64,000 nucleotides of DNA from a candidate division FCPU426 bacterium. Its GTDB lineage: Bacteria; Oederibacteriota; Muellerivitia; Muellerivitales; Muellerivitaceae. Positions 4,710-28,800 of the stretch are shown piece after piece (the stretch's first letter is position 1; every line of letters starts with the position of its first letter). The translations under genes and the position numbers were made by a program. The notes below the pieces were generated by a model. The model was not told where the DNA came from and ran no database searches. It saw only the letters and a program-made list of their open reading frames with translations. The stretch spans positions 1 to 64,000 of the forward strand of contig PLZG01000073.1 in the NCBI GenBank assembly GCA_003152075.1, written 5' to 3'.

Positions 4710-4830
4710 TTCCGGAAGTTATGAGTTTTGAGTCCTTAGTTATTAGTTTCGGAAGGTTTCTCAATTAAAGATTGAAAAACCAACCATCACTCAACACTTA
4801 AAACTCAAAACTAAGAACTCGCAATGAATT

Positions 4831-21875: not shown

Positions 21876-21960
21876 TTTTGCCACAGATGAACAGGGATGA
21901 ACAGGGATGGAAAAATGTTTCCAGAATTCAAAATTAAAAATTAAAAACTTAAAATTGCCT

Positions 21961-23379: not shown

Positions 23380-23557
23380 GCAGACCCCTCATTCGTATGC
23401 CAGCCTTGCCTTTGAAAGGAAAAAAGCCGATAGGCTTTTAACATTAACTCAGAACTCAAAACCCAAAACTCATAACTACCTTTTTTTGATGCCGTGGAAA
23501 TGAGGCAGTATCTTACGGGTGGGTACTGGTCAAAACAAGTGATTCAGGTCATAAAAC

Positions 23558-25717: not shown

Positions 25718-26150
25718 AGTTTTAAGTTCTAAGTTTTGAGTTTTAAGTTATGGTCAAAAACCTATCGGTTTTTACCTGTCGTTTTAACAATGGCTGTTAA
25801 CATCCGAGCCAGTTCTTCGGCTTGGCTCAAAAGCTGGTTATAATCTTGCCCTTCCAGCTTCGCTGCCTTCATCAAACGCAGCCAATAACGGGTTTCACGG
25901 GCTTCTTTGGAGGCAATGGACATCTTTGAAAGGAAATCCCTACGGCTTTGCGCGGCCAAAGCCTCTTCGACGTTGGCCCCAATACTTGTCGCGCTTCGGA
26001 GCAGTTGTTTCGATAGGACAAATTCATTCTTGAGCTTAAGCCTTTGGTACAACTCTATTACTTTCAAGGAAAACTCAAAACTTTTTTCGCCCACGAAACT
26101 TTTCAATGTTCGCCTTTTAACTTAAAACTAAAAACTTAGAACTTAAAACT
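25718..26150. mobile_element. Putative inverted-repeat cassette carrying four-helix-bundle gene
   Basis: 32-bp IRs 25718-25749 AGTTTTAAGTTCTAAGTTTTGAGTTTTAAGTT and 26119-26150 (31/32 when reverse-complemented). Confidence 0.75.
25762..26106 (-). CDS. Four-helix bundle protein (23S rRNA intervening-sequence/S23 family)
   Basis: SFEFSLKVIELYQRLK...LRSATSIGANVEEALAAQSRRDFLSKMSIASKEARETRYWLRLM. Confidence 0.92.
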   Translation of the reverse strand: MKSFVGEKSFEFSLKVIELYQRLKLKNEFVLSKQLLRSATSIGANVEEALAAQSRRDFLSKMSIASKEARETRYWLRLMKAAKLEGQDYNQLLSQAEELARMLTAIVKTTGKNR

Positions 26151-26982: not shown

Positions 26983-26993
26983 CCCTAAAGAAA

Positions 26994-27206
26994 AGTTTTA
27001 AGTTTTGAGTGTTGAGTGTTACCCTCATGTTTCCTTAAATAACATCGGGCGTTGCCCGATAATAAGGTTATGAGGGTGGCACAGTTTTCCACTAATGAGC
27101 CTATGGCTCCACGAAAAAGAGAAACTGTGTAAGTTATGGAACGCAATTTAATGGGAAGATTAAATTGCTTCTTCAACTCAAAACTAAAAACCTAGAACTT
27201 AAAACT
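26994..27206. repeat. IR-bounded structured intergenic element with four internal hairpins
   Basis: Arms AGTTTTAAGTT.../...AACTTAAAACT enclosing ACCCTCAT/ATGAGGGT, ATCGGGC/GCCCGAT, CACAGTTT/AAACTGTG, GAGCC/GGCTC, GCAATTTAAT/ATTAAATTGC. Confidence 0.8.
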
Positions 27207-27215
27207 GGATATTAA

Positions 27216-27887
27216 ATGGATCTCCTTATTTTTGACTTTGACGGTCTTATCCTGGATACCGAAACCGCTTCCTACCAGACTTGGATGGAAATATACGAGT
27301 CCTATGGGCAGACCTTGCCCCTGGAAAAATGGGCCCTTTGCATCGGCACCACCTACAACGCTTTTAACGTGATTGAGTACTTAGAGGCCCAGTCCGGAAT
27401 AACCTTGAACCATCGGGAGTTGCGCGACCGCCATAATAAGCGGATCAACGAATTGCTGGGTCCCATGGAACCACGGCCGGGAGTGATTGATTACCTGAAA
27501 GAAGCCCAACGGCAGAGAATCGCCTTGGCCCTGGCCTCCAGCTCCCCCCAGGAATGGGTGGTGGGCCATTTGTCCCGCTTGGGGCTCGCCGAGTGTTTTC
27601 ATTCCATTCGCTGCGCCGATGACGTGGAGAACGTGAAGCCCCATCCCGAGCTCTACAACTTGACCCTCACCTTCATGGGGGTTCATCCCGAAAAGGCGGT
27701 TGCCTTTGAGGATTCCCCCCATGGCATCCAGGCCGCCAAAAACGCCGGGGTCTATTGCGTGGCCGTGCCGAATTCCGTGACAAGCCGGCTGCCTATCGGC
27801 CATGCCGATTACCGCTTGGAGTCCATGGCGGATTTGAGCCTTCGAGAGTTGTTGCACAAGATTGAAACCCGCAAAACAAACATCTAA
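27216..27887 (+). CDS. HAD family hydrolase (beta-phosphoglucomutase-like)
   Basis: LLIFDFDGLILDTE, LASSSPQEWV, KPHPELY, FEDSPHGIQAAKNAG. Confidence 0.93.
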   Translation: MDLLIFDFDGLILDTETASYQTWMEIYESYGQTLPLEKWALCIGTTYNAFNVIEYLEAQSGITLNHRELRDRHNKRINELLGPMEPRPGVIDYLKEAQRQRIALALASSSPQEWVVGHLSRLGLAECFHSIRCADDVENVKPHPELYNLTLTFMGVHPEKAVAFEDSPHGIQAAKNAGVYCVAVPNSVTSRLPIGHADYRLESMADLSLRELLHKIETRKTNI

Positions 27888-27972
27888 GTTCTGAGTTCTG
27901 AGTTAATGTATGTTTTTGAACCTCTGGTTCAAAAACTTCCGAAACTTAAAACTCAACACTTAGAACTCAAAA

Positions 27973-28617
27973 CTATTTTTCAGCGATGAGGACATTGGTC
28001 ATTCCGAGGGGTTGTTTAAAATCTAAAAACCTCACCATCGGTAGAAGTACCCTCGGCGTTTTATTAGGTACCGTCATCCCATGGGAAAAGGATGCCACTA
28101 CCTTCAGCTTGTTCCGTTCCAGTTTCTCCCTCAAATACCCCATCGAAAAGGCCAGGGCCTTCCTTTCTTCCGGCACGATGGCCGAAAAAAGAAACATGAG
28201 GGGATTGTTCCGGTTGGGTTCCAGGATCACCACGTACTTCCTCGAAACCCGCCGCATTTCCTGGAGCACCTGGTCCAGGTTATCCACGTGGTGCAAAAGC
28301 GCGTGGCAGAAAACCACGTCGAAGGCAAAGTCCTGGAAGCTTAATTGGCCCGCGTCCATCAGGAGTTTTTGGCGGAGTGGGTTCTTAACCAGCATTTTCT
28401 GCGAAAAATCCACTCCCACCGTGTCGCAGATTTGGTCGAAATAATAAGAAAAAAAACCGTTCCCACAGCCCACATCCAACAGCCGGGTTTTCTTTTCCAG
28501 GGAAATCACCCGCCGGATTTGCTCGATTTTGGGTACCACATATTGCCGTACCACCGGATGGTCCGGCGGCCTGCGGTCTTCCAATGACTTTCTTTCCCAG
28601 TATTCTTTTTGGAACAA
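27973..28617 (-). CDS. Class I SAM-dependent methyltransferase
   Basis: TRLLDVGCGNGFFSYYF, VVFCHALLHHVDNLDQVLQEMRRVSR. Confidence 0.92.
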   Translation of the reverse strand: MFQKEYWERKSLEDRRPPDHPVVRQYVVPKIEQIRRVISLEKKTRLLDVGCGNGFFSYYFDQICDTVGVDFSQKMLVKNPLRQKLLMDAGQLSFQDFAFDVVFCHALLHHVDNLDQVLQEMRRVSRKYVVILEPNRNNPLMFLFSAIVPEERKALAFSMGYLREKLERNKLKVVASFSHGMTVPNKTPRVLLPMVRFLDFKQPLGMTNVLIAEK

Positions 28618-28645: not shown

Positions 28646-28800
28646 GGTAATGTCTCAGTTTAAGAAATCACCCCTCACCCTACCCTCTCCCGCAAGGGGC
28701 GAGGGTATCTAGAAAAGGGCCGTTTCCTTAATCCCCCCTCTCCCCTTACGGGAGAGGGTAGGGTGAGGGTGAAAGGATTATTTCAAAATGAGACACTACC
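28646..28800. repeat. MITE-like element with ~45-bp terminal inverted repeats
   Basis: GGTAATGTCTCAGTTTAAGAAATCACCCCTCACCCTACCCTCTCCC ... GGGAGAGGGTAGGGTGAGGGTGAAAGGATTATTTCAAAATGAGACACTACC. Confidence 0.8.

Follow-up and report, generated by a model that had tools for sequence, protein, structure and literature searches.

Among the longer simple repeats of many bacteria, heptanucleotide arrays are the most common, and the IVP/S23 proteins (23S-rRNA-intervening-sequence proteins) are abundant and, to our knowledge, without known function. The closest described relatives of the locus analyzed here are the intervening sequences (IVSs) of 23S rRNA in Coxiella and Leptospira, in which an S23p/IVP ORF lies between complementary ends; in the Coxiella IVS, tandem heptamers (GACAGAT) are found directly upstream of the ORF (PMC4990558). 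Separately, the TAACTGA arrays (PMC4679880), for which "no mechanism is evident" (PMC4679880), and the G-rich heptads of Nostoc and Xanthomonas (PMC4692102) have been published as unexplained direct repeats. Neither of these two papers mentions an intervening sequence or a four-helix bundle or makes a link to IVP genes, and our search of the incomplete open literature, which leaves priority uncertain, found no work linking heptads to IVP genes in general.

In the window, i.e. the whole stretch of 64,000 nucleotides analyzed here, an IVP element occupies positions 25718-26150. It consists of (i) an arm of five AGTT cores (25718-25749, minus strand), (ii) an IVP/four-helix-bundle gene (25762-26106, minus strand; 114-aa ORF, PF05635, E 1.5e-26, PDB homologues 2rld and 2gsc) and (iii) an opposite arm of five AACT cores (26119-26150, plus strand), each arm being exactly 32 nt long with a 7-nt pitch. 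The element resembles the 23S rRNA IVSs in that an IVP-family ORF lies between complementary ends and differs from them in its location between livF and livG, outside 23S rRNA; no 23S gene was found in the assembly. Inverted five-unit heptad arms and the non-coding family that shares them are, as far as we found, new to the literature. The 4.1-Mb genome contains two IVP genes, and the second (L002, contig C107) has AATTNNN and not AACTNNN heptads, giving two element types in one genome.

Arms of the same type recur 0.9 kb away at 26994-27206, a segment that, unlike the 23S rRNA IVSs, holds no IVP ORF. The preliminary description of this segment had reported inverted arms enclosing a cargo of ~150 nt with several hairpins and no ORF, and all of its stems and arms are present where it placed them; none of the listed ORFs of at least 80 aa lies inside, and AACTTAAAACT occurs 18 times in the window at no more than one mismatch against 1.5 occurrences expected. 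The segment consists of two nested elements, a 103-bp heptad-arm palindrome (HAP) outside and a 110-nt repeat, AB, inside. Because AB interrupts it, the left HAP arm is split into its first four heptads (AGTTTTA, AGTTTTG, AGTGTTG and AGTGTTA; 26994-27021, minus strand) and a fifth AGTT core (27132-27135, minus strand). AB itself (27022-27131, plus strand; 96.2 bits in an RNA covariance model match) has a TA target dinucleotide on each side and comprises, as indicated by folding and covariation, hairpin A (ACCCTCAT...ATCGGGC-GTT-GCCCGAT...ATGAGGGT; 27021-27077, plus strand) and hairpin B (CACAGTTT...GAGCC-TAT-GGCTC...AAACTGTG; 27080-27129, plus strand). The HAP continues with a 39-nt loop (27136-27174) that holds the hairpin GCAATTTAAT-GGGAAG-ATTAAATTGC (27143-27168) and has the length of other HAP loops (39 nt at 4717-4819 and in L014), and ends with a right arm of 32 nt and five AACT-like cores at 7-nt pitch (27175-27206, plus strand). 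When AB is deleted in silico, 26994-27021 joins 27132-27206, the fifth core completes a canonical 32-nt five-unit arm, and a canonical HAP of 32 + 39 + 32 = 103 nt is restored; therefore, 26994-27206 is an AB nested in a HAP. The hairpins are thus real and the single cargo is not: what had been taken for one cargo is AB together with the loop hairpin belonging to the HAP.

The fold energy, which was to be compared with shuffled controls, bears out extensive structure: the minimum free energy of 26985-27215 is -76.7 kcal/mol versus -44.5 +/- 3.8 for shuffles (z -8.5, 0/200 shuffles as good), and the opposite strand has a z of -7.2. The alternative of a structured RNA, raised in the same description, is supported only in the sense of conserved secondary structure, and the structures in 26994-27206 have no Rfam match even at a relaxed threshold. 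Its other proposal, a non-autonomous element, is correct on two counts: the arms come from a family of repeats that is kin to the IVP-gene element, and AB, a repeat in its own right that is dispersed separately, has homologous copies, shows covariation and has empty sites. The gene order livF-livG-HAD-methyltransferase is kept in G001 (same genus), G002, G006 and G007, and at this locus none of the four has a heptad array or an IVP gene. At the syntenic position the four relatives lack all three of the IVP element, the composite and the HAP by the 3' end of the HAD gene, which marks these three as insertions, most simply gained in the lineage of the window.

HAPs share a design of a 32-nt arm (five AACT cores in AACTNNN heptads at 7-nt pitch), a hairpin loop and an inverted 32-nt arm; they mostly measure ~95-107 bp, with loops of mostly 31-43 nt that contain a hairpin of their own. 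The pattern of four AACT cores has 22 matches in the 4.1-Mb genome, most of them belonging to HAPs, versus 0 for the reversed-pattern control. Besides the composite, the window contains a complete 103-bp HAP (32 + 39 + 32; 4717-4819) that is missing from the corresponding place in G006, a HAP at the HAD gene's 3' end (27887-27974) whose left arm is shortened and which is absent in G001, and a half HAP (23422-23477, plus strand) with the loop hairpin AAAAGCC-GAT-AGGCTTTT and a right arm. Across 36 candidates the cores are 81-98% conserved in all five units per arm and the spacers weakly so, a figure that is partly ascertained because the set was collected by core pattern and that includes a few arrays of other phyla. 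The loop hairpins differ in sequence and fold well (mean z -4.2; 31/36 below -2). HAPs are, like MITEs, short, non-coding, multi-copy, bounded by inverted termini, polymorphic in their insertion and related to a gene-carrying element, and seem to differ from them in having no known transposase. They likewise recall REPINs and their RAYT (TnpA-REP) in that ~100-bp palindromic doublets are dispersed in the genome and the same arms surround a rare protein gene; here, however, the arms are heptad arrays and not REP hairpins, there is no Y1/HUH transposase, the Y1 transposase PF01797 having no match in the genome. In G002 there are about 70 AACT-array matches, yet the three IVP genes inspected there all carry arms other than AACT, with AATTTAA, ACCTGAC and GTTCACA-like units, so the supposed master element there is missing or decayed. 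Isolated degenerate AATT-type arrays were also seen in the window at 21925-21956 and 1-24.

AB has the general form of hairpin A (ACCCTCAT..ATCGGGC-nnn-GCCCGAT..ATGAGGGT) followed by hairpin B (CACAGTTT..GGGCC-nnn-GGCCC..AAACTGTG). The covariance model detected it in 7/8 family-f1 genomes searched and in 0/36 genomes outside this family; it occupies about four distinct places in the genome of the window, and three genomes of a sister genus have 42-55 matches each at E <= 0.1, some of these being one site counted on both strands. In 84 matches from 81 places, 94% of cells are paired versus 85% in shuffled and 33-44% in slid alignments, and 23/25 pairs show two-sided changes, in an alignment that is fitted to the covariance model and hence biased towards structure; compensatory changes in five pairs were already present in the first MAFFT alignment of 12 copies. 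Building the model from dispersed copies, as had been proposed, thereby yielded both homologs and covariation. These data support a conserved secondary structure, and the same fold evidence would accommodate action as RNA or as a single-stranded DNA hairpin. Of 81 copies, 33 lie in open frames, a count that is uninformative because any stretch between two stops, on either strand, was taken as a frame.

Joining the flanks of AB copies identified empty sites, of which that of L218 is 96% identical over 161 nt without gaps (in G007:C25 and G002:C22) and those of L220, L223 and L217 are 94% (G007:C27), 88% and 85% identical. For L218 and L220 the alignment is exact: TTTTG is followed by CCCTCAT...GTGTG and A in the filled sites versus TTTTGA in the empty ones. 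The dinucleotides at the left and right edges are mostly alike (TA/TA in 39 copies, TG/TG in 22), with TR at both edges of filled sites and a single TR in empty sites. Covariation also links the base that precedes CCC to one within hairpin A (AU 45, GC 29, GU 6), so that AB seems to match its target, a hint that a hairpin base may guide target choice. Of 79 junctions, 17 lie in 7-nt periodic sequence, compared with 0 or 1 when lags other than multiples of 7 serve as controls, and the remaining copies are in other repeats or in unique sequence. The view implied in the preliminary description, of the arms as carriers of a hairpin cargo, is therefore not supported. Two such other repeats receive AB between GGGAGAGGGTA and GGGTGAGGGG and directly after GCCCGGTCC. 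With its sub-terminal hairpins, lack of terminal inverted repeats and short TR target beside a covarying internal base, AB resembles non-autonomous elements of the IS200/IS605 type, and its termini set it apart from MITEs. Unlike IS200/IS605-type elements, AB was found near none of the 11 Y1 loci tested and the genome of the window has no Y1 gene; on the basis of these 11 loci, Y1/RAYT was rejected as its mover.

Other dispersed repeats were observed in these genomes. The window has a further inverted repeat at 28667-28773 (CCCTCACCCTACCCTCTCCC...GGGAGAGGGTAGGGTGAGGG), relatives of which in G001 and G002 hold AB between GGGTA and GGGTG (L235, L279, L280, L284 and L286). In G002, AB also inserts (L219, L226 and L337) into a repeat of ~130 bp or more, GGTACCCGGACTAGCCGGAACC...GCCCGGTCC, which is present in at least 15 copies and has no Rfam match.

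The association of heptads with IVP genes extends beyond these genomes. The flanks of 31 IVP loci from the genome of the window and its relatives are 7-nt periodic, and among 80 loci from many phyla 85% of the flanks upstream and 64% of those downstream reach a lag-7 score of at least 19/28, versus 3% of control stretches located 700-900 nt away; no lags other than 7, 14 and 21 are prominent. In a scan without a preset unit number, five is the most frequent number of units in an arm (27 upstream and 25 downstream of 79), followed by four (20 and 21) and more than five (8 and 11), and 145/148 control stretches have no units; 18/79 flanks on each side (about 23%) have no array of the general core, some of these having other units. 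The two arrays around a gene are inverted to each other (0.79 versus 0.61 for direct orientation, 56 loci). In an independent set of plasmid loci from Cyanobacteria, Bacillota, Spirochaetota, Bacteroidota and Chloroflexota, 13/13 have an array, with a lag-7 mean of 22.1/24 versus 11.5-13.2 at lags other than multiples of 7. Distinct IVPs within one genome have distinct heptad units. The arms share their 7-nt pitch with described bacterial heptanucleotide repeats (TAACTGA; GGGGATT in Nostoc, GGGAATC in Xanthomonas, GTGATTA in Helicobacter), and AATCCCC (= GGGGATT) flanks an IVP gene in Planktothrix and ATTAGTG, a rotation of GTGATTA, one in Bernardetia. The oligomeric state of IVP is taken from the solved homologues 2rld and 2gsc, which have five chains each, and from the description of S23p as a homopentameric toroid (PMC4990558).

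Two observations were made on plasmids. In the Nostoc flagelliforme plasmids pNFSY06 and pNFSY08 (L312-L314), dozens of solo or paired arrays are identical or nearly identical to IVP arms; full IVP-element copies there share flanking genes and are therefore uninformative on the element ends. Several plasmid IVP genes (L378, L379, L380, L386, L387 and L388) lie in defence loci, where they separate cas2 from cas1, hsdS from hsdR, drmD from pglX (DISARM/BREX) or DUF1156 from Swt1-HEPN genes.

Combining these data, we suggest that 26994-27206 quite probably consists of two non-autonomous mobile repeats, one nested in the other, in which a HAP akin to the IVP element, with arms that may be read by IVP, received the unrelated AB at a TA in its left arm. 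It is rather unlikely that HAPs are mainly RNA processing or termination hairpins, i.e. RNase III substrates like the 23S rRNA IVSs, and not IVP sites. The arms can pair into a stem, and it is at such a stem that RNase III excises the Coxiella IVS (PMC4990558); however, within a HAP, complementarity between the spacer triplets of one arm and those of the other is no higher at matching than at non-matching positions (0.495 versus 0.517), although a small excess remains over arms swapped among HAPs (0.447, p 0.03). Since the spacers pair no better at matching positions, the repeated core and not perfect pairing is what is kept, and spacer complementarity is not supported as the cause of arm conservation. 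We regard it as unlikely that AB, or the entire 213 nt, functions as a structured RNA that regulates the neighboring genes, in cis or as an sRNA, and is kept for its RNA fold. The strong covariation of AB and the fold z of -8.5 are in line with this idea, as are a copy just upstream of a ribosome-binding site (L239) and copies adjoining tRNA genes in G001 and G004 (L281 and L291). AB is, however, dispersed in unrelated contexts and in both orientations, has exact empty sites, is conserved at orthologous positions in no more than a few pairs and has no Rfam match, and hairpins recognized as single-stranded DNA in transposition would covary too.

Heptad arrays could also be simple repeats generated by slippage, or sites of host regulators, which lie near IVP genes by chance or by a shared intergenic preference; polymerase slippage and binding by S1, Csp or Csr have been proposed (PMC4692102, PMC4679880). 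This is very unlikely given that the arrays are inverted about the IVP gene, most often have five units, are specific to lag 7, are found in 3% of stretches 700-900 nt away and are replicated in plasmids; moreover, the unit sequence follows the IVP protein sequence (Mantel r 0.53, 0.45 after correction for GC), a correlation that common descent of gene and arms would yield as well. Finally, the hairpins of AB would be the true cargo of the arms if the ~213 bp formed one mobile unit, for which the composite itself and a similar arrangement in L229 and L174 could be cited. We consider this extremely unlikely and largely refuted by the flanks and empty sites of AB: most AB copies are without arms and AB is present in a minority of HAPs, its position within the arms varies, it is found in two other repeat families, and empty sites within heptad arrays leave the array intact.

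For the composite of HAP and AB, the following model can be outlined from the sequence comparisons. A pentamer of IVP would recognize the arms, with one heptad core per subunit of a five-subunit ring. The TRAP ring binds spaced triplets, and an IVP ring on five heptads might be analogous to it. IVP elements and HAPs would spread by means of IVP recognition together with a partner activity, HAPs possibly being used in trans by IVP as REPINs are by RAYTs, and AB would be moved by a separate machinery that favors TR dinucleotides, often in repeats. We know of no catalytic activity of IVP, and no transposase or nuclease was found linked to HAP or AB, IVP being the only protein gene that shares the HAP arms. 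As a tentative generalization, about which we remain more doubtful than convinced, IVPs may be pentameric readers of five-heptad arrays that define a widespread class of mobile elements without a classical transposase, and the scattered heptanucleotide repeats may be their arms, solo arms and palindromic non-autonomous copies.

IVP genes and heptad arrays are physically linked in multiple phyla, with a unit number that matches the number of subunits, and elements of the IVS type are found far from rRNA, among other places within CRISPR, BREX/DISARM and restriction loci. IVP-linked arms may explain bacterial 7-base repeats, and because the link between IVP and heptads is tight, both problems, that of the repeats and that of the proteins, can be tested by one binding experiment.
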